64,000 nucleotides of DNA from Diphasiastrum complanatum (Eukaryota > Streptophyta > Lycopodiopsida > Lycopodiales > Lycopodiaceae): assembly GCA_029204225.1 (NCBI GenBank), contig MU831869.1, positions 1 to 64,000 of the forward strand. The letters run 5' to 3'. The translations under genes were made by a program, and so were the position numbers. Below are positions 1 through 38,844 of this stretch, piece by piece. The notes below the pieces were generated by a model. It saw nothing but the letters and a program-made list of their open reading frames with translations. It was not told the origin of the DNA and did no database searches. Every line of letters starts with the position of its first letter. Positions within the stretch are counted from its first letter, which is position 1.

Positions 1-259
1 TTGTCAACTATTTCAGTGGTTCTATCGCAGAGTTCTGATTCGACAAATAACAAAATCCACAGAATACAACAAGTTTAGAAAAGCATGCAAGTTCATACAG
101 GAAGAGAAAAATTAGAATATTGCTGAATAGCAAATTACATTCTTTATGAGCATCATAACAGATTACAAGTTCAGAGAAGCATGAGAGAAGAGCATCAAAA
201 TCAAATGATATGTACTCAATGTAAATGTGTTGATTGTATAATAACAAAAAACAAAGTAT

Positions 260-442
260 TTATTCTTCAACATCAGTTTTTATATCTCTTTCTATGGCTA
301 TATTGTCATGAAAAAATTCTCTGCTTGAGTATGCACCTAATAGATGTGCATTAATCTTGTTTCCAATAACTTCAATATACGTAGAGTACAATGAATAATG
401 AGAGCTCCTTAAAACAACATTCTCATCAAAGTCATTATTCAA
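260..442 (-). pseudogene. possible RPA3-like (RPA14) exon fragment
   Basis: A 60-codon open frame reads VV-x-x-S-S...TYIEVIG followed by YSSREF and an acidic end. The stretch ending in TYIEVIG resembles, from memory, the second half of plant replication protein A 14-kDa subunit, where a YxEVIG strand precedes an FGDxFD-type strand. The following part fits poorly, and the 5' side runs straight into the TCGAC-type repeat at 463-611. If real, it is a truncated exon or pseudogene. It could equally be a chance frame. Confidence 0.22.
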
Positions 443-462
443 AAAAGAGCAAGCTCGACATC

Positions 463-611
463 CAAGTCATCGACATTGAAGTCTCCGACGTCGAAGTCAT
501 CAATATCTTCTCAAGAGCAAGCTTGACATCCACGCATCGACATCAAAGTCTCCAACGTTGAAGTCATCGACATCTTCTCAAAGCAGCTCGACAATCGAAG
601 TCTTCGACTTC
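463..611. repeat. phrase-like TCGACATC/GAAGTC repeat block
   Basis: The words CGACATC, GAAGTCTC, GACGTCGAAGTC and CATCGACATC recur many times over about 150 bases with no fixed period. The same vocabulary recurs at 16.82-16.93 kb and inside the solo LTR at 58.26-58.33 kb, so this is probably a scrap of an LTR of that kind. Confidence 0.6.
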
Positions 612-1388
612 TCAACTAAATTGACTTAGCAACTAATAATAACAGCATGGTGTCTTAATCCCATTTTGAATAGTACAAACCTTATTAGAGGTCACTAACA
701 TAGCAAGGCGCTTATGGCCCAAAGCGGTGACGGTGCCTAAAGGAGGAAGCACGAATTATGGCTATCCAATTCCACTAATCAAGCATCACTAACTACTCTC
801 ATATACATATGTTGTAAAATGATAAGATCACTCTAGGGGTACTAATATATGATCGTATTCATCATGCAATCGGTTAGTTATCACTGAAAAGGGCGTTTTA
901 AAATTCTTGTCTATACTTTTTTTTTAAATGCATAGAGATACAGCAGCATGCAACAAGCAACAAACGCTAGGAAAGAATGTATACAAACAAATGCTGTTGT
1001 ATGATCTAGATGAATAATATAAAGATTTAAATTTTACAGGAAATAGAGTTTCTCCTATTCATTAACATCACGACCAAATAACACAAAAAATATTACATTA
1101 TCAAGACAAAATACAGAGAGATATGCAATCTTCATCCACAAAATCGATAACATGAAAATACAGTATTCAAGATAGGGAAAGCGATAAATATTTAGAAACA
1201 TCAACTATAGTGAGCCATAAAGTCCCCAATAGATTCAATCTACATTATCGTGATTTGATCTAGCATACAGCAAGTGAAACAGGTACTCATCGAAACGAAA
1301 AAAATCATTAGACAATTACAGTAGAGAACCCTACACAGACACTATACACAATCCACAAAAAAATCTCTAAGTCAACATATCATTCTAA

Positions 1389-1393
<5 letters not shown>
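612..1393. other. non-coding stretch, nothing recognised
   Basis: AT-rich sequence without open frames of note, without similarity I can recognise and without strong internal repeats. It lies downstream of the NST1-like gene. Confidence 0.5.

Positions 1394-1427
<34 letters not shown>
1394..1427. repeat. (GA)17 microsatellite
   Basis: An uninterrupted GA dinucleotide run in the 3' flank of the NST1-like gene, outside its coding exons. Confidence 0.95.
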
Positions 1428-1429
<2 letters not shown>

Positions 1430-1700
1430 TGCATATCTTATTTGAGGAATTGAAGGCAGTTAGATGACTCATTAAAAACTCACCAGCAAATCCCAAAGAT
1501 TTCCAGATAACATTCTGGGATACATACTCAGATAGAATGAGGCTGAAAAGGCCGTACTCCACACTTGGGCCACGCACATCATCAATGAGTGTGATGTAAG
1601 AAGTGCATTTATCAAATTCTTACTTTTATCCCACAGGAACACTTAACTTTTTTACTTTCTCCAAAACATCCTGGCGAATTATGTTCATAAGAAATGAGCC

Positions 1701-1869
1701 CTATCCCTTTGACACATCATATGCCCATAACGACTGCAATCCTGGAGTACTATAATAATCACCCAGATGAGGAATTTGCACAGAGCTTGTCATTGCTGAC
1801 AATGGAAGACTTCCTCGACAACCAAACATAGACCAGCCCGTCTCCAGCCCCATCCTCTTTGTAGACAAC
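1701..1869 (-). CDS. NST1-like gene, last coding exon (conserved C-terminal tail)
   Basis: The acceptor TTGCAG|G is followed by 55 codons ending QSLWAYDVSKG and TAG. The PH-[LI]-G-x-x-YST-xxx-QSLW motif is the terminal signature of plant NST1-like proteins as I remember them. The intron just upstream of the acceptor carries a (GA)n purine tract instead of a pyrimidine tract. Confidence 0.75.
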
Positions 1870-1891
1870 CTGCAACATGTTCCCAGATAAC

Positions 1892-1948
<57 letters not shown>

Positions 1949-4900
1949 CCCCAGAAAAAGAATGACCTCGGGTGCTCAGGGTTATTTGAGACAGATAATC
2001 AGAGACTCATAGAAACTCCATCCAGCATAGAATCCCGACCTGATTAAAACAATGTTTCTTTGCAGGAGGATTTCCATAGACAAATAGCAAACTTGCTTCA
2101 ATACGAGCTCAAATGCAATCAGGTGCTCAGGGTTATTTGAAACAGATAATTAGAGAATCACAAAAAGTCCACACACAGGTCTAGGTCTTATTCATTGGGT
2201 TTTTTGAGTAGGTTATTCATTGGAGCTTACAGTTATTTTCTTATTCCAGGTTTCGGTAGATTCTAGCTTTTCATATACAGCAGCTACTGTAGCAGCTTGT
2301 CTTTTTGTAATCCATCTAATTGACACAGTTATATTTCCTTCAATGCAATTGTGGTTGTTCAAGTTCTATTGCAGTTTGTGTATTGTGGTGGTCATAACTT
2401 GACCTATCTGTTTTGACCTCTTGCATGTATCACATTGAAGATTGTAGAAGGTGTCTCTTTAGCGAGTCCTGCAGCTTGATCTAAAACTTGAAATGTGTGA
2501 ATGTGGATGCTCACATATAAGTGCATTTGAAACATACTTGCTCTCAATATCATAATGCCCATAAAATCAAAAGACTGGCACTATCTACAACATACATCAA
2601 AATAATATCTCTAAGATACCATGGACCATGTTGCAAACAAATATACATCCGATCATCATAAAAGCTTACCCACGAGCAACTCGTTCTTTGTATTCAATGA
2701 TTTGTCCCCTTAAAATATGATTAGGCCGCAACGTCTTATCAACTCCAGTTCCATCACCTCCTGGGGGGGGTGGCAAAACCTCTCCTGTTATTGGACTAGT
2801 AACGTGAGTCCTGCAAACGTACAAATAGTCTCAGCATACCAGTTGTATGATGAATCGTCTTCTAAGTGGATGTTCTAAATACTTGACTGAACATACATTG
2901 CATTTGATAAATAGTTTCACATGAACTTGGCAAAAACAACAGCTCATTCGAAACAAAGGATTATGCTTTCAAACAGAAATTTTCAAAAAAAGCCGTATTC
3001 GATCCAGGCTTGGACTCTGCAAGCTGAATTGCCCTTCAAAACCCTTTCTACCTTTTGAAGAATGGCAAGATAAAATATATCAAATGTCACTTCAAGGCCA
3101 TACCTAAGTTAAATTTAAAGGAAAAAGCAAATCTCATGTGAAAGCCAAACATCTTGAAACCCCTGATCAGAGAATATTTTTTAGGACATTGAAATCTCTC
3201 GATACTTTTCATTTGAACTTCATCCGGAAAGGAGAGTATGCCCTTCAAATACCATAACTCAGCCTAATAGAACTTCCTATGCTTTGTGTCAATATAAAAT
3301 GCTCTCAAGTAAGTAAGGGAGTATCACATACTTTAACCAAAACTCTATTGCCGATCGCTCATAAGAATGTCCATCGGCTGTAATCACAGGATCCAGCATA
3401 ATTTCGCGGGTAATGCAATCAACAAACTCTGGTGGCACCTGGCGTTGAGAATCGGAATCATCCCAGATACGCAATGCAGATTGAAATGCTGACTGGTCTG
3501 ACCAGAGACTATTATTGGTTGATGCTGATAAAGGTATGGAGCCAACGGCAAATCCAGTGCTATCCCCCGTGCTACGATCATTTTGCTGTGGAGAGAACAG
3601 ACAAGATGGCAATTCATTCTCTGAATCCAGGGGAATTTTGGACAAAGGTAATAAAGTCTCCAACTCTGAGACCTCATTACTCGAAGGTAAAGCCCACTGC
3701 AATGGATCCACTAGACTGGAAAGATGGATTTGAGTTAACTGTGGTGCATCCCACATTTCCCATTTTCCCTCTCGAGAAGAGTCATTAGGATCCACTGACA
3801 AAGGCGACGTTGAAAGAGGCTCCAAAGAAGATGTTAGTTGATCTTTTGAAATTACCTTTTGGCCTATACAGTTGTTAGAGGAAAGTGAACTACCCAAAGT
3901 GCCACAATGCAGATGGGTATCACTCGTCGGAGAAAGAAGAGGAGATATCTGATTTACTGAACTGAGGGGACTGGACAGACTTGACAACAGAAAATTTGTT
4001 GTTAGAAAAGAAGCGCCAATGTCCAATGCTGTAAGACTGGAACAATTGATATTAGCTTCCAGATTGTTCAAACTCTGAGGAGCTGATATTGGTGGAAGCA
4101 CTGACGTAGAAAGTGGAACATGCACAGGATCCGTAGCTGAACCAGTTACACAGGCCAGCCCTGACCCTTCAGCCTGGATGCTGCCCCTGGCTTGAATCAT
4201 TGGTTCTGGGAGCAAACAAGGAGGTGGTGATGTGACTCTTTCACAAACAGCAGAATGTATATCTGTCTGACATCTTGTCAGATCATTGCAATACACTTTT
4301 CCAGCACATTCTGAGTGCACACTTGAAACCGTACACAGAAGTCTAGGAGGGGATTTGCATGAGTTCATCTGCAGAGCTGGCAAGTGTGACACTTCCTCCT
4401 GTAACAAATAAAATACACGTAAGAGTCAGAAAGGTGTGTGTGTGTGTGTCTCTCTCTCCATCTCTCTCTACCTCTCTCTGTGAAACAAAAAGCCATTTGT
4501 AGAATGGTGCACATACTGTGACAACACTACACTCATCAAAGAGCGTGGGAATTTAGAAGACTAAAGGAACACGAGAACATCTATTACCCACTCATCTTTG
4601 ATCCCAAGAACGCTGCAGAAAACGACACCACTTAAGGAAGCAAAAAAGAACAAGTCTAACAGATAAGCTTGAACAAGATGATCAGTATCGACAAAGAGTT
4701 AATTTTTACATTACCACCAAGGTTACAGAACATCGTCACATTAAGTTTAGAATGAGGTAGTGCTTAAACGTTTAATTAATTGTTGCACAATCTCCATTTA
4801 CCAAATAGACCCTGCATCAAGAAAATAAGCAGCTGCATCCTGCACCTGACAAGAGGGATTCACAAAGAGAATTACAGATAAAAATCATAACTAAGTTGAT

Positions 4901-7900
4901 AAATGGGATAAGCTTTTGCAGCATCCATAAGATCAACTGTCGGCAACTGTGTTTCTATGTCTCTATGGTGAGGAATCCCCAGTTGATAAAGGCTTTAGCA
5001 CTCATGTGTACTCTGGCTGTCACAGGTTTCAAAAGTATTCATTCTCAAACATTTTCATGATACAGAATTCACAGGATGCTCTTTTCTGGTGTTTGATTTT
5101 TTTTTATCTAAGGATCGCTCAGTTCCATGCACATTCATCCAGAAACAGGTCACAACATAACCATTTTGCACACATGAAGACATGCAGTCTGTCCATCACA
5201 CCTCACATTGACCTCATATGTCAATCACACAACTCAAAGACAGACAACTTCTGTTGGACAAAGGATCCTCAACGGCTTAAAGATAGGGATTTGTCAATTA
5301 GATGTCTATTTCATCAATAGGTTGAGTAGAGAAGGTACATCATATTACAGATTTGTGTTAATGCCCTGATGTTAAACTATGCCTTTCAATTGAGGTTCAT
5401 TCAGCCTTGAAACCTAGCCAGTTTCAACAAAATTTTCTTCTCCACTATTTGAGTCAGGCACTTTTTTTGACACGTGATATGCAGCAAAATTGGAAGTTCA
5501 CTCGTTCTTTTGTAACCCAGATTGTAGCACCCCCTTTGAGAAGCTTTAGATAGATTGTAAAATTTGATATACATGACATACCAAAGGAGACATACAATGA
5601 TTGTATTAACTAACTTGTACTTTTGCTTCACATTCAGTTTGAACCAGGCTTTTTCTTTTCTACACCAACTTCATGGAAGCACAAAGAAGCTAACACCGTA
5701 GGGTCATGTTAATCAGTGACATAATTTGCTATGGAGGTGAAAGATTCGACAAATTCTCGGTGTGTTTCATTTGAGAGGTCTCTCTCAACTTTGCAGTAGA
5801 CAAAATATCTTACGTGTCTTTTGGCAACCATTATAAGACCTTGACGTAAAGACCATGAAAATGGTGTCATCCATGTGCCATCATAATTAGCTTCTCGAGT
5901 TTTAAACCAAGAAAAAAAAATTTGTATAGATTCTTTTATGCTCCATTAAAGAAGACTAGCAGTTGATCCATATCGGTTATACATATAACATCTGCAGCAC
6001 TCTACCACCACAACGGAGGGCAAAATTAAACATGATCTTCCTAAGCTGTTCAGAATCCTTGCTACATCGGTAGTCTCCATCAGAGGACTATACTGGGAAA
6101 TCCAAGGACAAAAATTGATACATCAAGCATGTGCCTTTAAAAAGAATTTTTTTCATGCAATATCTCAATCACAGCTTATCCATCATATTGGTTGGTTGCA
6201 GCCCATCTTAGCATCTGTGAAGAACTACATGGTTGTGAGTAGGACAAAACTTTATCAATGAATATCACATATGTCCACAAACATATAGCCTACTTTGGTC
6301 TTAGCTGGATGGCATTTTTGTTTCAAATAGTTTGGAACGTCTCAATTTCAAACCTCAATGTTTATATGACCATTACTGTTTATCATATATATGTACATGT
6401 GAACTGAGTGGAATCATACTCTAGACCTAGAGATAACAAAAAGAGCCATCAACAAAAAGGCCACATTTTAAGAACTACACACATACTTATAAGGTACACA
6501 CAATCAGATCCATCAAACTACATTCACTGGTGACACGAACGTCCCCACCCACCTACAAACACCTACCTACGCCCACCCAAACACTCACACATACACACAC
6601 ACAAGCAAACAAACAAATCCTCATCCTCCTTCAGAGTTCTTCTAATTTTATTTCGCATGGATTGCATATCAAGCTTTTTAAACGAAACAAAGCAATCAGC
6701 AGCAGTATAGCCAGAAAATCCATAGTAGCAGTCCCCAATTCCACAAACCATTAGCAAAAGCACAGGAACGTGTGTGGATGCCCTGCAGTTACATCTATAA
6801 GGAGGCATGTGAAAGATTCAGAAATGCTGAAGGTGATCATAGAACTCCTTTAGCTCAAAGCTGAGACAATAATGTCTTCTGAAAAAAGCATCTCACTAGC
6901 AGAAATAACAATCACGTGCAAGAAAAACCAAAGCTGATTATAAACAGTGAGATTAAAAGAACGTCTATTTAATACTCTTTAAGCTCAAGAAAACTAACAG
7001 ATGGATCACTATGTTCAAAATATGTTACATGAAAGTGCTTAACAGTCTACTCTTTAAGCTCGAGAAAACTAATAAATGGATCACAGTGTTCAATATAATT
7101 TATGTTAAAGTGCTTGAACTCACCTTTGAATTCAGATTTGCAGAAGTTCTCTCCATGCCATTCACGTCGGAATGCGATTTATTGTCAGTAAAGTCAATTT
7201 GTCCAACAGGTTTGCCCCAAACTTTTGTGAATGGCATTCTGTTCAAAGAAGAACTGCTGGAAGCAAGCTTCTCACTACTCCCCTCAGGAAGAACAGTGCT
7301 CCGGCCTGTGGAAGCTGTGCCAGTTGAAATGACTCCTTTTGCAGATCTGCCACCAAAGGTGAAGCCTTTCCCCCAGAAGGTTGTATCACTAGAGCGTGAG
7401 CCTCCAATCTTGGATGCCGTCATTCCAGTCTTTGCTGGACTAATGTACTTAAGAGGAAGAACTTTCTGGCTGTTTCCAGCTTTTTTAGCAAATTCACTTC
7501 TCTTCAATCCAGATTCGATCCCAACTGTTCCAGAGCCTTTAAAACCCTTTTTTAGATTGCTAAAACTGGAATAACCTGTTTTCTGCTCTCCATTTCTCTC
7601 ACTTTCCAGTGGGTCAATGTCACACTTTTTTACTGTAGCTTTTCCATTCTCTTTCCTTTTTCTGGCATCTTCTAACTCAATCTCCTTAGCTTTCTCCTTC
7701 TCTCTTTCCTTTGCCTTCTCCTGCCGTCTCCTTTCAGCTTCCTTCTCTCGCCTGATCTCACGCTCTCGCTCAGCAGCTGCTTCCCTTTCACTCTCTCTTT
7801 CGGCTTCAAGCTTTTCATCTCTCAATCTCCTCCTCTCCTCAACCAGTCTGGCTACCTCCTCTCTTTGTTTCCTTTCTTCCTCCTCCAGCCGCTTCCTCTC

Positions 7901-8878
7901 CAATCTTGCTAACCTTCTCTCTTCAGCCTTTCTCCTGGCCTTCTCTCCTCTGCTCCCATGACTCGCAGGAAGATCCTCCTCCCGTCGCTGACTCCTCATT
8001 CGGCCTTCACCGAGTCGATCATCGTGCACAGCACCTTCGTCTGTCCATCTCTTTGTCAACACCCATTTGAACATCAGAAAAACAAGACAAACGTACTTCA
8101 ACAAGTAATAGACTCTCCCATGCTCCCCGGGAGAGCAAAATTCATTCTTGAACCAGAAACCCACATTATCACCCCACCCGGGAGATTCAACCCCCCAATT
8201 AAACCCTAATGCAGCCCAGCTTGGCCAAAAGCTCCAGAACCATGAACAATTGGCATTCCCCCAGCCCTCGCCTCCTGCGTCACAGCATTTGATTGCCCCT
8301 CCTCGGTCACCACATGACTCTGATCTGTCTGACCATCCTCTGATCCCCCATCCTCTCACATTTTTTGCATTCCAAATGCCTCCTCCGACAGAAGCCCCAC
8401 CCGTACTATGTGGCAACGACTGAGAGCCCCCTCCAGCAATCCCTGAAGCTCCCTGCATTCCCTGAACACCATTAGGCAAATCCAATACCGGCCGCTTAGA
8501 CACATGCCCACAATATGTACACATGAACTTTCCACCACATGGACTTTGCTCCCGGTAAGCATACAGGCAGTTCCTGCAGCGGCGAATCGCCTCCTTTCGC
8601 CATTTAGCTGCCTCCATTGCTTCGATCCGCCTTCTTTCCCGAAGCAGTGTATTCCTATGCGCCCGCCACTGAGATAACCTTGGCATCACCAGCTCATACC
8701 AGCCGAGGCTCATGAGAAGAACACCCACACAAGCTAGGCGTGGCGATGTCACTTCAAACCTAAATCCAGGAGGCAGCCACTGGGAGAGCGCCCACAGGAT
8801 TATGAGAGGGATTATGAGCCATGGCAGCATGGTCACAATGCGCCGTGACCACCTTGATGCCACACACAAAATGCACAT
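1701..8878 (-). CDS. NST1-like membrane protein with embedded U-box (spliced gene, 4 coding exons)
   Basis: Proposed coding exons on the minus strand are 8878-7124, 4398-3332, 2810-2670 and 1869-1701. All introns are GT-AG and all junction phases match, giving 3132 nt or 1043 residues plus stop. The N-terminus (MCILCV start, membrane segments near residues 15-34 and 47-66, Cys101/104/120/123 zinc ribbon ending GHVSKRPVLDLP) and the C-terminus (PHLGDYYST...QSLWAYD) match what I recall of plant proteins annotated 'stress response NST1-like'. The coil GEKARRKAEERR to LVEERRRLRDEK is also shared. Between them lies a U-box (about residues 907-985; CITREIMLDPV, ADGHSYER, RPNHILR), which predicts E2 binding and ubiquitin ligase activity. 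Topology suggests an endomembrane anchor with a cytosolic ligase domain; this is inference. An upstream in-frame ATG at 8926 exists, but homologues start at MCILCV. An extra exon inside the 2.7-kb intron is not excluded. Confidence 0.8.
1895..1945. repeat. (CT)25 microsatellite beside a 3' splice site
   Basis: 51 bases of CT on the plus strand, which is GA on the gene strand. It ends 25 bases from the acceptor of the last exon of the NST1-like gene. Confidence 0.95.
2670..2810 (-). CDS. NST1-like gene, coding exon 3 (second half of U-box)
   Basis: Begins after TTTGCAG and completes the codon left by exon 2. It reads THVTSPITGEVLPPPPGG...TLRPNHILRGQIIEYKER, the standard second half of a U-box (SP-T-G, then L-PN-LR). 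A Pro/Gly-rich insertion (PPPPGGDGTGVD) lengthens the loop. The frame reaches TAA at 2668-2666, but that TAA overlaps a good donor (GG|GTAAGC). Splicing there to the acceptor at 1870/1871 keeps frame with the conserved tail. Reading through would end the protein just after the U-box, so a shorter isoform is possible. Confidence 0.8.
3332..4398 (-). CDS. NST1-like gene, coding exon 2 (Ser-rich region and first half of U-box)
   Basis: The acceptor is TTGTTACAG|GAGG and the donor TTAAA|GTATGTG. Most of the exon is low-complexity Ser/Leu/Pro. The segment REGKWEMWDAPQL resembles the KGTWQMW block that I recall from angiosperm NST1-like proteins, which supports one gene rather than two. The last 35 residues begin a U-box: PPEFVDCITREIMLDPVITA, then DGHSYER and EFWLK. 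The key hydrophobic and DP/ADG/YER positions of the family are all present. Confidence 0.85.
4436..4493. repeat. (TG)n/(CT)n compound microsatellite
   Basis: GTGTGTGTGT runs into interrupted CTCTCT blocks, just upstream of exon 2 of the NST1-like gene, in the intron. Confidence 0.85.
4494..6972 (-). other. 2.7-kb intron of the NST1-like gene; one unexplained open frame at 5709-5945
   Basis: Mostly non-coding. A 79-codon open frame without ATG runs on the minus strand at 5709-5945 (contains FFSWFKTREANYDGTW and RHVRYFVYCKVERD). I do not recognise it; it may be an old transposon scrap or an exon. A CA-rich stretch lies at 6583-6603. No further NST1-like exon could be picked out by eye, although one is possible because the Ser-rich middle of this family is poorly conserved. 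Confidence 0.4.
6973..7120. repeat. 75-bp tandem duplication at the exon 1 donor
   Basis: Two head-to-tail copies start TACTCTTTAAGCTC at 6973 and 7048. They differ at scattered positions and by small indels. The second copy runs up to the exon 1 donor of the NST1-like gene. Confidence 0.85.
7124..8878 (-). CDS. NST1-like gene, coding exon 1 (membrane segments, zinc ribbon, coiled coil)
   Basis: 585 codons. Two hydrophobic segments are separated by a short loop (PPGFRFEVTSPR) and followed by a basic arm and a CxxC-x15-CxxC zinc ribbon. A Gly/Trp-rich linker comes next, then a third hydrophobic patch near residues 268-288. A highly charged Arg/Glu/Lys coiled coil of about 130 residues begins near residue 300 and is followed by a Ser-rich tail. 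The exon ends in a clean donor (AAG|GTGAGT). The zinc ribbon after a two-pass membrane hairpin recalls the layout of ER-shaping Lunapark proteins; that comparison is mine and unproven. Apparent overlapping frames on the plus strand (for example 7617-7961) are shadows of this coil. Confidence 0.85.
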
Positions 8879-9539
8879 CCTCCCACCTCCACTCAATGTG
8901 TGCCTCTTCCCCTCTAGGGCTTGCAAAAAAGATCTAATCCAGCTTTCCCTTTCCTTCTTATCTTGACCTCAACCTTGAGCCTTCTGTGTGTTCATCCCTA
9001 CATCAAGCTATTATCGCATTTGCACAAACCCAAACAGCAACGATTCTTCCCAACTTGACATCAACTTGCGCTTACCCTAATCGTTCCGCCGATGCAGCAA
9101 AATCCAAAATGCTCTTGCTCCTGGCTTGGCTTGATGTCCTCGCGGCTTGGAGCAGTAAATCTTGCAACTGAATCCGCTGCTGTTCCCGGAATCTTTGCAT
9201 CTAAAAGCTTTCATCCAAGCTCCACCACGCCCATACATCAACAAGCCTGATGTGCAACAAAAATCTGACGAAAAGCGCAAATTCTTCTGCCACGGAGCAT
9301 GCGAAAGGTCCGATCATGGAATTGAATGCACATTGGGAAGCAGATACTGGAGAATGAGAGAATGGGAGAGGACAGCATCGCTCGCACGCAGCCAGAAGAA
9401 GAAGAAGAAAAGGAGGAGGATCGGATGCAAAAGCGAAGGAAATGGGAAAAGAAAGCAGAGAGAGCGCGAAGCAAAGGAAAAGGAAAGGGGATAAGAAACG
9501 ACCGCGAAAAGGATTCGAAGGCAGAAATGCGAGGACGAT
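8879..9539 (-). promoter_or_regulatory. probable 5' leader of the NST1-like gene, CT-rich on the gene strand
   Basis: Between the ATG and the telo-box the gene strand is rich in CT and TTC runs (plus-strand purine block at 9394-9535). Plant core promoters and leaders often show such Y-patches. The open frames seen here on both strands have low-complexity composition and no recognisable domain, so I do not call them genes. The transcription start cannot be fixed. Confidence 0.45.
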
Positions 9540-9548
9540 AAACCCTAA
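9540..9548 (+). promoter_or_regulatory. telo-box AAACCCTAA
   Basis: An exact AAACCCTAA motif, a known element of promoters of plant housekeeping and translation-related genes. It lies 662 bases upstream of the NST1-like ATG. Confidence 0.55.
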
Positions 9549-9573
9549 ATGGGATGGACCAATCCCACGGTGC

Positions 9574-9579
9574 CACGTG
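9574..9579. promoter_or_regulatory. G-box CACGTG (proximal)
   Basis: TGCCACGTGCC contains the palindromic G-box bound by plant bZIP and bHLH factors. It is paired with a second copy 64 bases further from the gene. Confidence 0.55.
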
Positions 9580-9637
9580 CCTCAAAAACCTACTCCCTAA
9601 AAGGGCTTTCACCTGCTGGCAACGACAAGCTGATTGC

Positions 9638-9643
9638 CACGTG
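9638..9643. promoter_or_regulatory. G-box CACGTG (distal, extended palindrome)
   Basis: TGCCACGTGGCA is a 12-base perfect palindrome around the G-box core. Two such sites near a telo-box make this the likely regulatory region of the divergently read NST1-like gene. Confidence 0.6.
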
Positions 9644-9669
9644 GCACATTGTGGTGCTTGTCCCATAAG

Positions 9670-12600
9670 CCAAGGATAGAACTAGAATGAGAGAAAAGGC
9701 CCTCCTCCTCAAGGCTATGGGGTTGCGACTTGAGATAAATATGAGGAGAATTATTGTCACAACACACGACAAGGCTCGAATCCGATCCGCCCTGTACATT
9801 TGCTTTCTTGTCGAGATCTAAACCGTCGGCATCACATCTTGTAGTTTGCTTTTTTGTTGACATCTAAGCTCTTGGCATCATCTTTTGGAACTCCTTTGTT
9901 GTTGACATCTTAGAACCACGTAATTTGTGCACACAAAAGGTCTACAATTTAGAGCTATTGGATTTTTCTTTTGAAGGGGAGCTAACTTACGAAGCTCAAC
10001 ATATGGTATGACTACAACTCGTAGCGTGCTCTCCATTGACAATGTTGATAGTCATGATGATGTTGGTGTTTTTTGCTCCCCTTGTTTATTTCTATTTTTT
10101 TAATTTACATGAAGAGGAGATATATTTAGGTGGGGGGGGGGAGGGATGATGTCCCCTCCCCCCTCCTTATCTTAGTGAATCTTAAAATTCAACTTCGCCA
10201 TGATCCCTTGATTGCCAAACACAACAATCATCTCACTTGAGAAAGTTAAAAAATGAAACTATATAAAAACACAGTTGCCAATGGCTTCTTATATTAAGTG
10301 CCACATGGCAACACGTAATAGGAGGTTGCCTCGTGACAACTAAGGACTCAAGTTGACATCTTGGAACCCTGAAACTTTCCCAAATCAAGAATTCAAGCCC
10401 TCAAACCCTTAGGGCAGGTTCTCAAATATGAGAAAATCCTCGAGTACATAGACCTTTCATTACACCTAAGGTTGTTTTCAAACATTTCACAAAAGCTCTA
10501 CATGGAATCAACAAGATGCCAATAACCTTTATTCATGTGCCCGTACACATTACATTAAAAGAGATCAAAACACTAGCTCATGAAGCCGCCTCCTCTCCTA
10601 CAATCTCTCCATAATGCAACAAATGAAATGAGCAATGAAATAAATACTTTGTATATTTCGATAATAGAAATGAATTGGCTAAGCCTTATAAACAATAAGT
10701 ATGGAAGGTGATTTTCTTCCTCAAACCCTAACCTAATGTGCAAGTTACATCTGTAATCTTAACCCTACATTGTCACCGACGGTCAAGATGAAAGATTGGT
10801 AAATGTAGCCAATAGAATGTACTAAGTTGTGTAGCACTCCAAAGAGGTAACTTGAGGCATAAGTTTGCACAATATTATCTTCCTAAGTTGGCCTCACAAA
10901 TTGGGCTAAATTGGCATTTTATAATACCATGTGCAAAAACTCTCATAATGTGAACAATAGCACATTGGCATAAGTTAACATTTTGCAATGTTGGCCTAAG
11001 TTGGCATTTTGCATATCGTAAATACCTGCACATATTTTTTTAGTTCATTTGAAAGTTGCCTTAAATGCCATAATTTTTTTATTTTTGGCAATATACTATT
11101 TTTAGGAATTTTACGAATCAACTTACAAAAATGTAAGGTATGGTTTCTATTTTTAGAAAGTCACATATATCCGAGATTACTATTTTTGAAAAGTCGACTT
11201 TGTAAAAATAGAAAAAAAAAAAGTAAAAAAAAAAAAGTGCAGTTGATTTACGCAGGGGAAGGCCTTCGGGCGGGGGGCCTTCCCCCTTACTTTGACAATA
11301 CCACATTGGCCTAAGTTGGTATTTGCATGATTTTTATAATGACATTGATTTTAGTATGAGATGCAATTAGTACTACCCAACCATAATGCCAAACATGCTA
11401 GGCATAATCTTTTTTGGATGACATCCTATCGAAAGTTTAGTAGTAGAGATCCCATCCCCTATCTTTGTTTTGGCTTCCGCAATTTTTGCATTTAGCGCAA
11501 TTAGCATTGCTCAGCCCAAATGCCAAAGCAACAAATTTACATTTTAATCTTCTAGTTAATTGACAAATAGGTTCATTGTATGGCTATCTATGATGCCTCC
11601 CAAATAGCAAGTCAGATCAATAGTCTGATAGTATCATTAGCATGCTAACAAATTTGTGAAAAAAAGTCTATATAATTATAGAACTAATAGGTAGTTGCAT
11701 CTATCTCTTCATATAGAACCAGGTATCAGAGTTTTTATACTTGTGTAAATCCCTTAAGTCGTATCTTTCAGCATACCTCACATACTTCCAACATAGGAGA
11801 CATATATGGCTAAGATGCAAGTTTTGAAAAGAACATGTTGGATAGAATGTGACTCTCTCTGAATGCAGTCATAGCCTAGAGATGAATGACCACAATATTA
11901 GTAGTCTTGAATATTGAAAATGAGCCATCAACTCTTCTTGGTCAATTTTATGGTTTGAATGATATTTGCTCTTTCAAGAAGAGCTAGTATGCAAAATGAA
12001 TTACTCTAAACAAAGGTTCAAAGTTATTGTGAATCAATCTAAACTAAGGTTCAAAGTTATAATCTCAAAAAAAAATTCTACACAAAGTCAATATTATTTG
12101 TGATTTATTATGAAGTCATGGTCACTCTAAATAGAGCTACTGCTCAAACACACGTGACAGACATTCATGATACGTAGAATCTAAAGTAATTGCATGAGTG
12201 CAAGAAACTGAAATAATGTAATAGGTAAGTGTATGAGGTGTCATAGACCACCATGCATTGAATCAATTTAGTCTAATATTGATCATTCATTCTACCATGA
12301 CATCGGTTCTTTTTTTTTACAAAGGATTTAGAGGCACCTCACCTGACGTAATTTGTGGAAAAAGTTTTGAATAATTGATTTACATATGATCCTCGTCAGA
12401 ACATACGTGCAATTGTAGGGACTTTCCGCTCAAAACATTGCTGCAAAAATGAAGGCCACAAAACTGCCATGTGTCATGCACTCATCTGAAAGCCAAAAAA
12501 CTACCATGTGCCATGTAATTTATCTGTAAAAGAAAACGGTTTACACACGATTTCAAATTTTCTTTCAATTTAATTAATTACACTTTGGCTCTAGCAGAGC

Positions 12601-13784: not shown

Positions 13785-14520
13785 CTACTGAGGTAGATTC
13801 ATGAATGCTTGAGGGATTGAATGATCAAGCTCTTGTTGATGTCGGATAGATCTTTGAACAATAGTCGGTTGCTGAGATGATGATTCTCCTTGTTGTGTGA
13901 CATGGATATCTTCTATTGTCGGAAGGTGCAGGTTAAGGTCTGTCGATGGTGATGGGAGTCGTTGGAACGAACTCTTGCATTGACTACTTCTACTTGAAAT
14001 CATAGAATCTGACTTCGAGGAAGATGACATCTCGACTGACTGAGACTTGACATCATAAATTCGAAAGGCTTTGTGTGATGTCGAGTATCCAATGAAGATA
14101 CTCCTACAGCTAACAGGGTCAAGCTTCTGTCTCAGATCAGATGGAATCTGCACATAACAAAGACAGCCAAACACTCGAAGGTGCTTGAGACTCAGTTTGT
14201 AGCCATGGAAGGCTTCAAAGGTAGTTCTTGAGTCGACTGCCTGGGTGCTTGAATAGTTCTGCAAATAGCAAGCTGTTGAGACTGCTTTAGCCCAGAAATT
14301 CTTGGGTAGCTACATTTGACATCATTGATCGTGCTGCATTTAAGTAATGTTCAATTCTTTCTCTCGGCTCCTCCATTCTGCTGTGGTGTGTAGCTAGTGA
14401 ACTAATGATGAATGTTGCATGATGATAGGAAGTCGGACATTTCGTCTGATGGGAACTCTCCACCATTGTCTGTACGTAGGGTCCTGAGTCCTTGACCAAT
14501 CTGTGTCTTAGCAAACTGTT
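13785..14520 (-). pseudogene. copia integrase C-terminal part
   Basis: LKHLRVFGCLCYVQIP and IFIGYSTSHKAFRIYD are the conserved copia blocks after the integrase core. A frameshifted DNGGE-region remnant lies at 14287-14514. Confidence 0.85.
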
Positions 14521-14565
14521 TATTTTTTGAAATAGTTGAATGTCTCATACTTGTTCCTAATGAGC

Positions 14566-14741
<176 letters not shown>

Positions 14742-14744
14742 TAA

Positions 14745-15271
14745 TATATAATATAGTGTTGAACCCAGAGATGAAACACTCATAGGGCTGAACAGATCAC
14801 TATGTATCAATCCTAAATTGGACTTAGTTCTAGTGCCTTGTCCCTTTGGAAATCTTGATCTAGGTTGTTTGTCTAGTAGGCACATCTCACAAGCATGTCG
14901 AGTGTTAGTGGAGGCAACATTAAGGTTTAGATCCTTGACCATACTATTGTGATGCACATACAAGATCGATCTCATGTTTAAGTGTCCTAATCTTTGATGC
15001 CATAAATGGGCATTTGAAGTACTCACATTGGTAGTGAGTGCATATTCATGACTCAAAATGTACAAATTACCTTCTTTGCTTGTAGAGAGACATACTTCAA
15101 ATCTGCTGGTGTGAGATCTTCGAATAGGAACTCGCATGGAGTCATGTGCTCAGAAGCACTAGAATTGAGATACCAATCCATGGCATCTCTAATGGGTTCA
15201 TCTTGTACCATTAGCAGTGTTGGGTCTTCATGAGAGGTTATGGCAGAATCAGATCCTCTCTCCTGCTGCAT
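14745..15271 (-). pseudogene. copia protease and GAG-pre-integrase region
   Basis: The protease site reads WYLNSSASEHM, where the family has D-S/T-G, so the catalytic Asp and Gly are lost. Downstream, LWHQRLGHLNMRSI and HACEMCLLDKQPRS form the GAG-pre-integrase/zinc-binding part. Confidence 0.85.
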
Positions 15272-26930: not shown

Positions 26931-27834
26931 CCCTTTCTCATTAGTTGTATCTGACGTCCTCCATCTTCGTTTCATCTAACGTCCATTGCATCTGCCAATC
27001 TCCATTCGACGCCCTCCACCTTCATTTGCATCTGCCACATTTGCATCTGCTAGTATATTCTAGTACATCCGACACTGCATTCCATGACTATCTGTTGCTA
27101 TCTGCCAAGCTTTAGACTACATCCGACATCTTCAAAGTTTCTCACACTTTTTCAGCTTTAATAATTGATTCAACATATAAATCATATTCTACGAGTTCAA
27201 TCATGTCTCAAAAATAATCAATACATAATCTCATATTGTTAATCTGATTCGGTTATAAGATTCAGTCAAAGACAAACCAGTCTGAAACATTTCCATTCAT
27301 GACTAAGTACATTTGAGACTGCAACCAACAGGAGATCTGACAAGCCTCTATACTATCACTAAAGTTACATCCGACAAGCACATCAGAGAGTCACCATATT
27401 TTATATCTGGCTCCTCAATCCTTCGTCACATCCAATTTTATCTCCGATGTTTGACTACTTCATATTGATTGAAATACATCCGATGTCCATCTTCTTCCAA
27501 TGCTTAGTATCCTACCAAAACTAATTGAATGTCAAAACCAAGTCTCTCTAACCGAGGCTTCCATCCGAATGTTTTGAAGTGACTCTCTTCCACCGAATTC
27601 CTCCATCGAATCTTCACTAAGGAACTCCAACCAAGTCTCCTCGACCGAGAGGTTCAACCGAAGTTTTTCACCATAGGCACTATCTAGCATCCACTCTTTG
27701 CTGAATGAAATTTTTGTTTGACAAGTACTTTGTATTTAGTGACTCTCTGTAAACAGCAAGCCATACTTGTAGAATAGCTCAAGAATAAATTAGTTATTTA
27801 TCTCACCTTGTAGAGAGTTTAGAATATTTGTGCT
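26931..27834. other. flank of the CATCCGAC repeat and leader-like DNA
   Basis: CATCCGAC-type phrases thin out toward 27485. From 27545 to 27670 a second phrase set (ACCGAGG, CCACCGAA, ACCGAAG) appears. The right end adjoins the primer site of the copia LTR at 27851. Confidence 0.5.
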
Positions 27835-27846
27835 GCTCTGATACCA
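27835..27846 (-). promoter_or_regulatory. copia primer binding site next to LTR
   Basis: Exact minus-strand TGGTATCAGAGC, 4 bases inside the LTR end at 27851. Confidence 0.8.
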
Positions 27847-28352
27847 CTTTTGTAGGAGTAGACATTGATATCACTCTATGGGTGGAAATAGATATCAGCT
27901 TTGATAATACTTCTATTGGAAAAAAAACAAGAAAATTGCTATAACCGGGACCATGGATTACTTGGAGAATGGAGTTACGAGTAGTTCTGTGTGTGTGAAA
28001 TCAGATTATCAGTGTAGGAGTCATAGACTGCCATGAAAGAGAGATTGAAAAAGGAATTAGACATCTGAGACAGCCATGGAATCCTCTAATACTAATAACC
28101 TGACATGAAGAGAATGTAGAATTAATTCAAGCGTCAGAAGTAGCCATACAATTCTCTTCTTAATAATGTTTGTGTGAGAGGAGCGAGAGTTATCATTCAA
28201 CAAGAATGCGAAGGTGTAGAACAATAGTGAATCTGTATATTGAAGTTGTAAATACAACGATCAAACCACAATATAGTTGTGTTGATAAGTGTGTGATCCT
28301 ACTAACAAAATCCTACTAACAGATTCAAGACAATTGCTAAGGTTCTAAATTA

Positions 28353-28570
<218 letters not shown>

Positions 28571-28660
28571 CACTAACTCTGAGGAGTTAGCTACCGTTAA
28601 AAGGTGTTCTCCACTATCTAACCTTACGCAACATGATCTTCTCTCTGTACAATTGCTCAA

Positions 28661-28661
<1 letters not shown>

Positions 28662-28748
<87 letters not shown>
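28662..28748. repeat. (CA)30 (TA)13 compound microsatellite
   Basis: CA run 28662-28722 passes into TA run to 28748, inside the LTR. The sister LTRs have only TATATATACATG here. Confidence 0.95.
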
Positions 28749-29368
28749 CAGTTGGAAAAATATTGTACTAACTTACCTTTACAATTACAAGATTGATAAC
28801 AACTGTTAAACTGATCAGTGGATCAGTTCGTTGATGGAGCGTGAAGGCTTTTTGGTTTGATAGTGAAAATCTGTGTATTTTAGCAGGCTACAAATGTGAC
28901 ACTCCTTGGCCTTTTGGCTATTGCCTTTACCTGAGGGCATCCTTCAGGATTTGTAAGACACCTTCGGCGTTTGGAAGACACCTTCAGCATTTGAGACACC
29001 TTCAGAGTTTGGAAGACACCTTCGAGATTTGTAGGACATCGCCTTTGATTTATAGGACAGCTTCGACCTATTGTAGGGCAAGTGTCACTTTTTTTTTTTG
29101 CCTTTTGAAAACTGCATGCAAATATGCAGTGTCGAGTTTTTTTCCTCAATTTTCGCCTATGTAGAAACCCGTGTAAAACTTGCATTGTCGCATGTCAGAA
29201 AACTCAATGTAAAAACACAATGTCGGGTTTTTTGCATTTTTCGGCTGTGCAAAAAATGCGAGTAAAAATAGCAACAGTTCATTTTCTGCAGGTTACATTT
29301 GAGAGAGTAAAATCTAGAGAAGGAAGGAGGGCTGTGGGGACGAGTAGGAGTTAGATTAAACTCCAACA

Positions 29369-31378
29369 CTCCCCCTTAAGCTAACTACTATAAATCTGAT
29401 CTGCAATTGAGATTTAACATACTTATTAAAGTAGAATGTTTATCTCTAGACAATGGCTTTATCAAAATATCAGCCAACATACTGTTTGTATGACAATAAC
29501 TTAGTACAACATCTAGACTCTGAACTTTCTCTCTAAGAAAATGAAATTGAACTTCTATATGCTTAGTTCTATTATGAGTCGCACTGGAGTATTGTCGAAC
29601 TGATCTGTGTGAATTGCAGATCCTGCAGCAGCCTCCTTAGCCAAATTATTTCCTTCACTGTTGATATAGCTGCAACATATTCGAAATCTGTGGAGGACAG
29701 AGAAATGCACTTTTGTTGTTCCATGAGCTGGGTCCTCCTGCGAGGAAACAAATGTAGCTTGATGTGGATTTTTTGGTATCCACGTCTCCTGCCCAATCTG
29801 AATCTGAATAAGTGGTCAATGTGAGTGCAGCTTCTATATTTCCATTATAGCTCAAAAAAAAACCAACGGGGTTGGCTTAGTTGGTTAGCTTGACATCCAA
29901 AGTTTCTTTGGTCTTAGGTTCAAGCCTCCCCTTGGAAACCAAGAAGCATTATAGCTCAAAGCATAGTGCTTTGTAGCTTGAATGTACCTCAATACTCTTT
30001 GCAGAACTTTCTAGTGCCGTAGGCCTGGATTGGACATGTACTGAGACAATGTGCTTACTGCATATGCTAGATCAGGTCGTGTACAGATCATAGATACATA
30101 ATAGATCCTATGACAGACTGATAAAAATACTTGCACATTTCTTGTTGATCTGCTTGAGTTTTGGGGCACATATCTCTGGACAACTTAGCTTTTGGATCCA
30201 TAGGTGTGTCTATGGGCTTGCAGTCCTCCATGCCATATCTTGCCTTCAAGAAAGACAACATCACGGCTGACTGAGATCTAACTTGAATCAACATCATAGA
30301 TGCGATATGCTTTATGTGACGTTGAGTAGCCGATGAAGATGCTCTTACACCTTACTGGCTCCAGCTTCTTCCTTAGATCAGATGGCACTTGTGCATGGCA
30401 GAGACATCCGAAAACAAGTAGATGTTTCAAGCTTGCTTTGTATCCGTAGTAGGCTTCAAATGGTGTCCTAGAATCAACTACTTTAGTGCTGGAGTAGTTC
30501 TGTAGATAGAAGGCCGTAGAGATTGCTTATGCCCAAAATGTTTGAGGTAAATGGGCATTGGTTGTCATGGATCATGCAACTTCCAACAGTGTGCGATTCT
30601 TCCGCTCAGCTACTCCATTTTGCTGAGGAGTGTACCTTGTGGTAAACTGATGGTGCACACCACATGACGACATATAGTCCTTCATCTCATTTGATAGGTA
30701 CTCTTCCCCTGAATCAGACCGTAGGGCCTTGATTTTCTAACCAGTCTGATTCTCAGCATATTGATTGAATTCTTTGAAGCAATTGAATGCTTCTGACTTG
30801 TTTTTAATGAACATTACACTGGTAAAATGGGAGTAGTCATCAATGAATGTAATAAAATATAGAGCCTTACCCAAGGAAGGTACGCTCATATGACCACATA
30901 AGTCACTGTGTATCAGTGACAGAATGGACTTGGCTCTTCTGGCCTATCCTCTTGGAAATTTGGTTCTAGGCTGCTTGCCTAAGCAACTTTGATAAACGGA
31001 TTGATTAGCTATAGTAACAACATTTATATTCACGTCCTTGAACATTTTGTTATGATGCATATACAAGATTGAATGCATGTTTAGATGTCGTAATCTCTGA
31101 TACCATAAATTAGCATCTGAACAACTCACAGAAAGTGCAACAACGTGACTCAGTATGTACAAATTTCCTTCTTTGGAAGCAGAGAGGATTTCCTTTGAAT
31201 TTTCAATTACAATAGTACATCGTCTAGCTGTAAACAAAGCTCTGCAGCCTTCTTGCTAATAGACAATAAGTTCTTTGTTAATTTGGGTACATAAAGTACA
31301 CAATTAAGCTACCTTAGTGATGCCATCAGAGAATTGTAGTCAAATAGAGCCTTGGCCTTCGACTTGATGTGAACTGGA
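29369..31378 (-). pseudogene. copia pol fragment of element A (integrase, RT end, RNase H)
   Basis: Minus strand: GAG-pre-integrase with NLWYQRLRHLNMHSI, much-stopped integrase, then a jump to RT/RNase H (MEDCKPIDTPMDP, SVIGSIMYL, YSDSDWAGDVDTKKS, RTKHIEVQFHFLREK, LADILIKPL). It ends in CTTAAGGGGGAG, the polypurine tract, against the LTR. The middle of RT including YVDD is deleted. The right end is cut by the LTR of element C at 31379. Confidence 0.88.
29857..29946 (+). mobile_element. tRNA-derived SINE-like insertion with 14-bp target duplication
   Basis: The insert contains TTGGCTTAGTTGGTTAGC (RNA polymerase III A-box type) and, 30 bases on, GGTTCAAGCC (B-box). It is flanked by CATTATAGCTCAAA at 29843-29856 and 29947-29960. 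Removing the insert and one repeat restores the copia frame HYALSYNGNIEA. An A-run lies on the left side only, so orientation of the tail is unusual. At about 90 bp it is little more than a tRNA head. Confidence 0.82.
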
Positions 31379-32053
31379 TGTTAGATTTTTTATGCTCAAC
31401 CTTAAACAAATCATTCAAGTAATGAGCATCTTGAAAAACCCCGAAGGCCGACTTCATATTTTTGGACCTTCACATTTTCTTCTTTTACCTTAAAAGCAAT
31501 CTTTTTAGACACCTTTGTCTTTTTTGCTCCTTAGCGAAAAATGCGACACTCTAGCCAAGTGCCAAAATGCCTTAGCAATCATTTTTGGGCATTTTCATCT
31601 TTTTCGCCTTTCTCGCTACCTTTAAAATCTAAGGCACCTTCGCCTTCCTCACTGCCTTCGATGTAAGGCACTTTCTCAGCTTTTTCACCTTCTTTGTCAT
31701 CTTAAATCTAAGGGCGCCTTAGGGATTTACATACCTTTAGTATAAGGACAACTTCAAGAGTTGCATACCTTCAATCTAAAGCACCTTCGGGTTTTTCGGC
31801 TTTTTCGTGTTTTGCTACATTGGCTGACTGACGTCGCCAACTTATCAACAAACCCTAAAAAACAGCTGGACAAACCAAATATCCCATAGGCGGTTACCAA
31901 CTTTGTACATATGCAAAGACTGGCGTAAATAGCATTAAAGGCTTGTAAGATATTTGTTCCTCGACACTTGTAAATCTATATATTAGCTGATTCAAGCTAT
32001 GTAAAAACAAAAGTCAAGAATTTGAGTTAATTGAATTTTTCTCTTTCAATCAA

Positions 32054-32085
<32 letters not shown>

Positions 32086-32324
32086 CCTGTAGCCAGTGTT
32101 ATTACGCTTAGCAAGCTGAAGTTATTACTTCAAGCTCTTGTACTCATTGTTGATATTAATCAGAGTGCAATTTTTGTCTCACTACTATGTCGTTCATTTG
32201 CGCATACTGTATGAATTCTTCTACTTGAATAATTCTGCTGCTAACTGTTGCGTTTTCATTCCTACACACCATGCTCCAATCCTCAAGCTTCCACTGCGCT
32301 TGCCCACATGCGGTTTTTACGACA
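31379..32324 (+). mobile_element. copia LTR of element C, 946 bp
   Basis: Starts TGTTAG where element A is interrupted and ends ACGACA directly before TGGTATCAGAGC. Holds phrase repeats of the type AAGGCACCTTCGCC at 31440-31800 and a 40-base T run at 32056-32095. Confidence 0.65.
32056..32095. repeat. T40 homopolymer inside LTR
   Basis: Forty consecutive T bases. Confidence 0.95.
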
Positions 32325-32336
32325 TGGTATCAGAGC
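32325..32336 (+). promoter_or_regulatory. copia primer binding site of element C
   Basis: Exact TGGTATCAGAGC abutting the LTR end, 133 bases before the gag start. Confidence 0.8.
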
Positions 32337-32468
32337 AAGCATTTCAATAATCTGTATTTTTACTACGGATTATCAGTCTTGTTTCTATTAAGATGTCTTT
32401 CTAGCAAATGCACAGCCAACAGTATTCTAACAATCATTGTTTCTACCAACGAACTCGTTCAACCAGAA

Positions 32469-33965
32469 TGGATCCATCATCTAGTTCATCTCTCATTGAC
32501 AAAATCGATGGAGATAACTACCATCTCTGGAAATTCAAGATGACGGTTATACTTCTAGCCAAGGAACTGTGGGACATCGTTGATGGCACAGAGCTCAAAC
32601 CATTAGGTGATGCAACCATCATCACCAAGTGGAGACTGAGAGATGGCAAAGCATTTGCCATGATTACCCTCAACATCAAATATACTTAGATCAGCCACAT
32701 ACGTGCTGCTTAGACAACTAAGGATGCATGGGACATCCTAGCAACTCTCTATGACATCAGAGACGTTACATCCAAGCTTTATCTGAGGAAGAAATTCTTC
32801 ACCCTCAAAATGTTTGAGACAGATAGTGTTTCGAGTCACTTCAACACGTTCAAGAATCTTATGGAGCAGATGAATGCAACCGGCTCAGTCATAGAAGATT
32901 CCGATGCACTCATGACTCTATTATCGAGTCTACCTGATGCCTACAAAAATTGGGTAATGGCAATTTCTACCCAGGAGCACCTCACTCTATCAAGAGTAAT
33001 TTCGCTACTCCTACAAGAGGAGATCAGAAGATCAGCATCCTCCTCATGCTTAGGATTGGATCCTCAAGCTCTGTATTTAAAAAATCAGAAATTTAGATCC
33101 AAGAGGTCTACAAAGTCAGGCTCTACTGACAAGAAGAGCAACATCCAGTCAGGACCAAATTCTGGTCTAGGATCGAATTCAAGCTCTTCATCATTTCAAC
33201 CAGTGTAGAAACTTTTCTGCATATACTGTAAGAGAACTGGCCATGAAATAAAAGACTGCCAAACTTTAAAGTACAACAACGAAAACAAGAAGCAGTTTCA
33301 ACAACAAGCACATAGTGCTACAGCCAGTCACTCAAATCAGCAACAACAAGAAGAAGATGAAGCAGCTTTCATGACCAAAGTCGGAGAACAACAGGAGATC
33401 GATTCCTAGTATCTAGATTCAGGAGCAACTCAACACATGACTCACCATCGCGACTAGTTCAAAGACTATAAGTCATTCACCCACTCTCGAGTTGTGCAAC
33501 TTGGAGACAACTCATCACATTCAATTGAAGGTGAAGGAACAGTCAGAGTTGGGTTCAAAAGAGGTGAAGTCAAGGTTCTCCACATTCCAAATCTTACCAA
33601 GAATCTGCTCTCAATTAGCAAAATCACCAATTCAGGTCAGAAGGTCAAATTCGATATAGAAGGTTGCGCAATTTTTGACAAATCCCGGAAGGTTCTAGCC
33701 TACGGAAGAAGAAGCGGCTATCTGTACAAACTCAGTATTTACTATTCTTCTAACAGTCAAGCTCTTCACACAGCCACTTCTGAATCAACTGATATGCTGT
33801 GGCATTTCAGACTTGGCTATCTTAACTACAACAATACAGCAAATGTTAGCTCAGAGTCTAGTACAAGGCATGCCTTCAGTCAAGAAGCTAGCTTCTCCAT
33901 GCGAAAGTTGCATTATCAACAAGCATGCTAGAAGTCCCTTCAGTTCAGACTCAGTTCATACATCC
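32469..33965 (+). pseudogene. copia gag-protease-preintegrase of element C, 3' truncated
   Basis: gag starts MDPSSSSSLIDKIDGDNY and reads LWKFKMTVILLAKELWD and MEQMNATG...LSSLPDAY. The zinc knuckle CIYCKRTGHEIKDC is intact and the protease has an intact YLDSGATQHM. VLHIPNLTKNLLSISK and the GAG-pre-integrase HFRLGYLNY follow. Only a handful of stops (for example at 32687, 33207 and 33407) interrupt it, so it is younger than element A. It breaks off at about 33965. Confidence 0.88.
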
Positions 33966-34190
33966 AGGGGATATAATGGCAAGTGCTTTGCCATCCTTTG
34001 CTTCCCATGTTGGAAGCAATTTAGGTTCTACCAGCTTGGGTATTGAACCATTTATGTACCGCCACAGCTCTTTCTCGATCAGGATCATCCTCATCTTGAA
34101 CTTCCACATGTGGAAGTCATCTCCATTGAATTTGTTGACAAAATGGATCTCTGAGGTTGAACCTTCCATAGCGATCGAGTAGTAGAGATG
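33966..34190 (-). pseudogene. copia gag N-terminal scrap of element A
   Basis: Minus strand MEGSTSEIHFVNKFNGDDFH then MWKFKMRMILIEKELW and WEAKDGKALAII, nearly the same as the gag of element B at 36239. It is the probable far part of element A, separated by the nested element C and a deletion. Confidence 0.8.
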
Positions 34191-34319
34191 AAACACAAAC
34201 AGCTCGCAAATCTCGCATATGTATTTGGGCACTTGCAAATTTCGTCAAAGATGGATCTATCTTACATATCAATCTTGAAAAAAAAAAACAAAATCTTGTT
34301 CTAGTAATAATTGCAAACT

Positions 34320-34740
34320 CAAATTATACGTAAAAAATTATAGTATTTTTCTATACGTAAAAAATGACATTTTTTTTTTCATAAAAAAATCTCAATTGAT
34401 ATGGGAAATCGATGTCTGGTATCGATTTGCCGTATAAAAAAAAACGATTAAAATTTAGTTATTTTTATATATTTTTTGATACGGGAAATCGATACCGGGT
34501 ATCGAATTCGATACCCGGTATCGATTTCTCGTATCAAAAGAGCTTTTTTTGATACAGAAAATCGATACCGGGTATCAAATTCGATATCCGGTATCGATTT
34601 CCCGTATCAATGAGAGGTTTTTTTTAGTTTTTTTCATACGAGAAATCGATATGCAGTATCGATTTCACGTATCAAGAGAGGTGTATTTATGAAAAAATAG
34701 GATTTTTTTTTTATATTAAAAACTGTCGTTTTTTCTGATG
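34320..34740. repeat. array of four palindromes (ATCGATACCGGGTATCGA type)
   Basis: Palindromes lie at 34400-34434, 34478-34535, 34551-34608 and 34636-34673. The second is 58 bases, self-complementary except for one base pair, with GAATTC at its centre. All share GATACGGGAAATCGATAC and its complement. Flanking T-rich text is also arranged symmetrically (TTTTTCATAAAAAAATC left; GAAAAAATAGGATTTTT right), so the whole block is a larger imperfect inverted repeat. No protein is encoded. Confidence 0.88.
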
Positions 34741-34817
34741 TTCTCACAGAAATCCAAGAAGTGTTGAAGAAAACATCTTACAACCAAAAATATGTTCTAC
34801 TTAAGTCACCTTGTCCT

Positions 34818-36132: not shown

Positions 36133-36136
36133 AAAG

Positions 36137-36148
36137 TGGTATCAGAGC
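36137..36148 (+). promoter_or_regulatory. copia primer binding site of element B
   Basis: Exact TGGTATCAGAGC, 4 bases after the 5' LTR. Confidence 0.85.

Positions 36149-37598: not shown

Positions 37599-38844
<1,246 letters not shown>

Follow-up and report, generated by a model that had tools for sequence, protein, structure and literature searches.

Can a U-box and a hydrophobic, membrane-type N-terminus belong to one and the same plant protein, and could such a protein act as an E3 ubiquitin ligase? The question is raised by a locus at positions 1701-8878 of a 64,000-nucleotide stretch of Diphasiastrum complanatum DNA (GenBank assembly GCA_029204225.1, contig MU831869.1, positions 1 to 64,000; the window). 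A sequence-only reading of this DNA had joined four exons into one gene and placed a U-box between the coiled coil and the conserved tail of an NST1-like, two-pass membrane protein. Our analysis indicates that the locus is one gene with four exons, whose product is probably a U-box E3 ubiquitin ligase associated with a membrane. The architecture is most naturally read as that of a putative membrane-anchored E3 ligase; its insertion into a membrane, a cytosolic position of its U-box, the binding of an E2, its ligase activity and its substrates are inferred.

Gene model and copies in the genome

On the minus strand, four exons between positions 8878 and 1701 join in frame into 1043 codons and a stop (Table 1), and all three introns (2.7, 0.5 and 0.8 kilobases (kb) for introns 1, 2 and 3, respectively) are of the GT..AG type. 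The encoded protein begins with a hydrophobic N-terminus, followed by a CxxC...CxxC motif, a helix rich in E, R and K, a long linker, the U-box and a short tail. The four exons in phase, their coordinates and strand, the U-box motifs and the QSLWAYD tail of the sequence-only reading were borne out, with one correction at the intron 2 donor. The site G/GTTAAA, with which exon 2 would end at position 3338, was dropped, and GTATGT, six bases further, was taken, so that exon 2 ends at 3332. The GTATGT donor adds L-K to the U-box (AIEFWLKTHVTSPITG), restoring W-L-K-T-H.

We searched the genome (1.74 gigabases in 5176 contigs, among which the window contig is designated C351); the searches scored the best candidates only, and further distant copies are possible. 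The window contig redundantly repeats part of contig C21, with two nucleotide differences and no amino-acid difference in the coding sequence. A true paralog was found on contig C22, where it is present twice, the two copies differing by 7 nucleotides and 1 amino acid. They lie near 19.74 and 31.38 megabases, are 99.0-99.5% alike and differ by 5.8 kb in intron 1 and by 1.1 kb in intron 3; they either arose by recent duplication or represent two haplotypes that were placed in series. Among the genome matches found, there was no complete copy without the U-box and one extra N-terminal fragment, on contig C18. This 160-base stretch (C18:42002171-42002335) is identical to part of exon 1 of the C22 paralog; no other match to the paralog locus was present in the 9 kb around it, and it is probably a recently captured gene fragment.

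The paralog protein is 77% identical to the window protein (802/1039 aligned codons; synonymous divergence, dS, 0.47). Its gene has the same four exons, phases and splice sites, with exons 2-4 equal in length (1067, 141 and 169 nucleotides (nt)) and an exon 1 of 1773 nt versus 1755 nt in the window. The GTATGT donor of intron 2 is found in both C22 copies, and the weaker GT is GC in one of them and kept in the other. In-frame stops stand directly before the ATG in the paralog; in the window, the nearest one is 35 codons upstream. The paralog introns (12.6, 4.4 and 11.3 kb in copy A; 6.8, 4.4 and 10.2 kb in copy B) are unrelated to those of the window, and a BLASTN comparison of window positions 1-11500 with the paralog (E<=1e-6) gave four blocks, each around an exon, the last one including the 3' flank. 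All insertions and deletions (indels) in exons 1 and 2 between the window and the paralog (9/9) are multiples of 3. The N-terminus, the U-box half in exon 2 and the tail were all found together at four places in the genome, one on C21, one on C351 and two on C22. Because of the conserved exon plan, the in-frame indels and the shared genome places, an accidental join is unlikely, and the single gene proposed earlier holds. Since the paralog shares the exons and phases, with the U-box as its most constrained region, the combination of N-terminus and U-box is older than the duplication and is under selection.

The U-box and selection along the protein

The identity of the U-box was confirmed by the profile search, in which the C-terminal 146 amino acids (aa) scored 53 bits with PF04564, for which the cut-off is 21.4 (E 3.9e-14). 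A zf-Nse match on the U-box (E 0.01) was below the Pfam cut-off and was not used. The closest sequences in the PDB are solved plant U-boxes, the top one at E 8.7e-8, and its alignment covers both halves of the domain, end to end, across a 10-residue insert that is identical in the paralog. Residues Ile914 (loop-1), Trp939 (helix) and Pro947 (loop-2), which we take to be E2 contacts, align with the solved plant U-boxes and are unchanged in the paralog.

The ratio of nonsynonymous to synonymous divergence (dN/dS) was calculated by the Nei-Gojobori method between the window gene and the C22 paralog for 11 regions. The lowest value of all was obtained for the U-box (aa 905-985; dN 0.005, dS 0.494, ratio 0.011), in which 80/81 residues are identical and 20 of the 21 changed codons are silent, V944D being the sole residue change. 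The hairpin (aa 1-70; 69/70 identical) follows with 0.029, and the basic helix with the CxxC motif (aa 71-135; 61/65 identical) with 0.064. Higher ratios were found for hydrophobic segment 3 (0.142), the charged helix (0.157), aa 791-830 (0.212), aa 136-252 (0.26) and the tail (0.284), in comparison to 0.28 for the whole protein, and the linkers reached 0.51-0.53 (aa 426-790) and 0.70 (aa 831-904). None of the 959 windows of 81 aligned codons exceeded the identity of the U-box, and the 20 windows reaching 80/81 start at residues 904-923, all of them overlapping it. The low ratios at both ends and the high ratios in the linkers show that selection keeps both ends of one protein, with the middle as a spacer. 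The U-box is thus under very strong purifying selection in the same protein as a strongly conserved hydrophobic N-terminus.

Membrane topology and alternative readings

In the mechanism that we favour, the N-terminal hydrophobic hairpin would anchor the protein in an endomembrane, with the basic helix and the zinc-ribbon-like motif beside the hairpin on the cytosolic side. A tether, formed by the long charged helix together with the variable linker, would carry the C-terminal U-box, which would bind E2~ubiquitin and hand the ubiquitin to substrates at the same membrane. The net charge is +3 in the 15 aa before segment 1 and +4 after segment 2, and because of this flanking charge the positive-inside rule favours a cytosolic location of both hairpin ends. 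The "two-pass" description is uncertain, as hydropathy supports two or three segments, the third of them at aa 256-275. The "coiled coil" is borne out in part, as a highly charged stretch with a weak heptad pattern. Pfam zinc-ribbon matches to the N-terminus were sub-threshold only (E 0.06-0.08), and DUF1348, zf-Tnp_2 and Zn_Ribbon_TF (E 0.004-0.08), all below the Pfam cut-offs, were left unused. A comparison of the N-terminus with PDB sequences gave one chance-level match only (E 1.3), and as expected, no relatives of it were confirmed in one scan each of viral contigs (5 pattern stretches) and prokaryote contigs (31).

Three other readings were weighed, along with several observations against this mechanism. 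The length of intron 1 (2725 nt, the longest of the window copy) would fit two genes, the first for an N-terminal membrane protein that stops after exon 1 and the second a U-box gene starting in exon 2. We regard this as very improbable, as the paralog, with an unrelated intron 1, shares the exon-1 donor, the exon-2 acceptor and the phase, the Met residues early in exon 2 are, judged by eye, not conserved in it, and the indels remain in frame with a dN/dS of 0.51 over aa 586-790, the start of exon 2; moreover, the N-terminus and the U-box are found at the same four genome places. With regard to topology, one of the two hydropathy scales (octanol) gives segment 2 a weak score and a Trp-rich stretch (aa 212-230) a good one (-11.6), so that even the number of segments is tentative, and an AlphaFold model of aa 1-284 (two-row alignment), which was poor and was not used, had a mean predicted local distance difference test score of 43.0 and a predicted template modelling score of 0.27. 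Segment 3 is conserved, and both scales rate it as more hydrophobic than segment 2 (Kyte-Doolittle 1.75 vs 1.62; octanol -10.8 vs -5.0). If it spanned the membrane, the helix and the U-box would be on the other side, and the protein would be a lumenal or peripheral one with a non-cytosolic U-box and a role other than ubiquitination. This seems quite improbable: a U-box with no access to E2 enzymes would hardly be expected to show near-absolute constraint, and segment 3 carries two Lys residues and seems more likely to be re-entrant or peripheral.

The remaining points concern the U-box itself, and some of them would suit a membrane protein with a U-box that has lost ubiquitin transfer, its fold being kept as a protein-binding module that might, for example, tether an E2 or a different U-box protein to the membrane. 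The PF04564 alignment spans profile positions 1-50 of 73, and the 10-residue insert breaks the second half of the domain. In a comparison with the U-boxes of the genome (the best 30 of 94 matches, with 24 distinct sequences, 23 of them parsed), the window protein has D-C-I where all 30 loci have C-P-[IL]. A U-box on contig C11, which we take to be CHIP-like, likewise lacks the Pro (C-C-G-I). Gly950 occupies the linchpin position, which is commonly Arg, Gln or Asn; however, Gly is found there in 4 of the 23 distinct U-boxes, and the worry that it disables the domain is weakened by that. None of the three features (D-C-I, Gly950 and the insert) is a strong argument against activity, nor does any of them prove it. 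Given also that Ile914, Trp939 and Pro947 are all kept and that the U-box has the lowest dN/dS of the 11 regions, we consider a non-transferring U-box unlikely, and a membrane-associated ligase remains the preferred reading.

Table 1. Positions of the exons, domains and motifs of the U-box gene in the window
Feature	Position	Strand	Basis
Exon 1 (aa 1-585)	7124..8878	-	Open reading frame and GTGAGT donor; same donor in paralog
Hydrophobic segment 1 (aa 13-35)	8774..8842	-	Kyte-Doolittle <=2.26 over 19 aa; octanol -16.9
Hydrophobic segment 2 (aa 47-66)	8681..8740	-	Kyte-Doolittle <=1.62; octanol weak, -5.0 at aa 53-71
CxxC...CxxC zinc-ribbon-like motif (aa 101-123)	8510..8578	-	Sequence; four Cys kept in paralog
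Hydrophobic segment 3 (aa 256-275)	8054..8113	-	Kyte-Doolittle 1.75, octanol -10.8; conserved in paralog
E/R/K-rich charged helix (aa 300-425)	7604..7981	-	66% charged; <=25% hydrophobic at heptad a/d
Exon 2 (aa 586-942, last codon split)	3332..4398	-	TTACAG acceptor, GTATGT donor; paralog also 1067 nt
U-box, first part (aa 906-941)	3332..3438	-	PF04564 match
Exon 3	2670..2810	-	TTGCAG acceptor, GTAAGC donor; paralog also 141 nt
U-box, second part (to aa 985), with 10-residue insert	2678..2810	-	Alignment to PDB 7c96_B
Exon 4 with stop codon	1701..1869	-	TTGCAG acceptor; paralog also 169 nt
QSLWAYD tail motif	1716..1736	-	Sequence; kept in both paralog copies

Elsewhere in the window, pieces which we take by eye to belong to a subtilisin-like protease gene lie at 46653-48959 on the plus strand, and presumed Copia-type polyprotein-like pieces at 13788-15149 (minus strand), 32714-33928 and 62671-63270 (both plus strand). 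Repeats in direct and in inverted orientation, roughly 230-480 bases long and 90-95% identical, occur in the region 27834-38761.

Known ligases, the NST1-like label and significance

HRD1 and DOA10 are membrane-anchored RING ligases of the endoplasmic reticulum, and Lunapark combines a hairpin with a zinc ribbon. With HRD1 and DOA10 the window protein would share the plan of a membrane anchor and an E2-recruiting domain, which is a U-box here and a RING in those ligases. It would resemble Lunapark in a hairpin with a zinc-ribbon-like motif, but Pfam gave no Lunapark zinc ribbon for aa 1-137 at E<=10. CHIP and the window protein both have a C-terminal U-box without the Pro of C-P-I, whereas the window protein lacks a TPR region and has a membrane-type N-terminus. 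To our knowledge, membrane-anchored E3 ligases are mostly RING proteins. In the literature library searched, none of five phrases naming a membrane-anchored U-box protein occurred in any paper, and nothing on this protein was among the matches listed; PMC7923238, on ligases of the endoplasmic reticulum, and PMC10316315 contributed nothing further. Databases of other plants may already carry such annotations. In the part of a review that lists them, plant U-box proteins are divided into ARM, cyclophilin, GKL, UFD2, U-box only, WD40, TPR-like and kinase groups (PMC8875423), and a membrane-type group is absent from that list. In contrast to these groups, the U-box is joined here to a hydrophobic N-terminus, a CxxC motif and a charged helix. 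No ARM, kinase, WD40, TPR, cyclophilin or UFD2 partner region was detected by Pfam in the 1041-aa model (E<=1), that is, the model before the donor correction, which was used for the whole-protein scan; after the correction, Pfam was run again on four pieces of the protein, namely its N-terminus, its charged helix, its C-terminal 146 aa and its tail. The likeness to the groups lies in a U-box above the Pfam cut-off and in the presumed E2-contact residues.

The earlier proposal of a membrane-anchored ligase is supported in part, by the single gene with a constrained U-box and a conserved hydrophobic N-terminus; the name is not supported. Pfam, which we assume to hold a yeast-type NST1 model, gave no NST1 match to the whole 1041-aa protein (E<=1) or to the charged helix (E<=10). 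Because the U-box was the only family found over the 1041-aa model at E<=1, the name NST1-like appears to be without support here. In the parts of two articles that concern them, "stress response NST1-like" genes are treated as the cell-wall NAC factor NST1 (PMC8228913, PMC5180183). In our own reading, the NST1-like proteins and the cell-wall regulator are unrelated and the label misleads.

We assume that the window protein is akin to the flowering-plant "stress response protein NST1-like" proteins and that these lack a U-box; the following comparisons, with presumed sequences of such proteins, serve as leads only. A presumed NST1-like fragment is identical at 97/135 N-terminal residues, and a presumed NST1-like tail (QSLW) has a local score of 75 versus a shuffle maximum of 46 (0/2000 reach it). 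The presumed stretch that stands where the U-box would be gives a local alignment to some 20 residues in the first half of the domain. One presumed version of it scored 36 against the window protein (reached by 5 of 5000 shuffles in one run and by 3 of 5000 in another) and 39 against the paralog (0/5000); another presumed version scored 31 and 33, respectively (19/5000 each), and the 23 other U-boxes of the genome scored 13-24 against the assumed stretch. Since the letters of the stretch are presumed, and it was picked after the likeness had been noticed, these shuffle figures overstate the case for a decayed U-box. It is possible, though on balance doubtful, that the U-box is ancestral in a land-plant membrane-protein family, in which some lineages, including this one, would keep a working membrane-anchored ligase and the U-box of flowering plants would have decayed in place to a short stretch without catalytic function, with the anchor and the tail kept. 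If this is true, the flowering-plant "NST1-like" orphans would be former ubiquitin ligases and may still bind their old partners. The putative membrane-associated ligase offers a concrete biochemical hypothesis for a poorly understood group of plant proteins.

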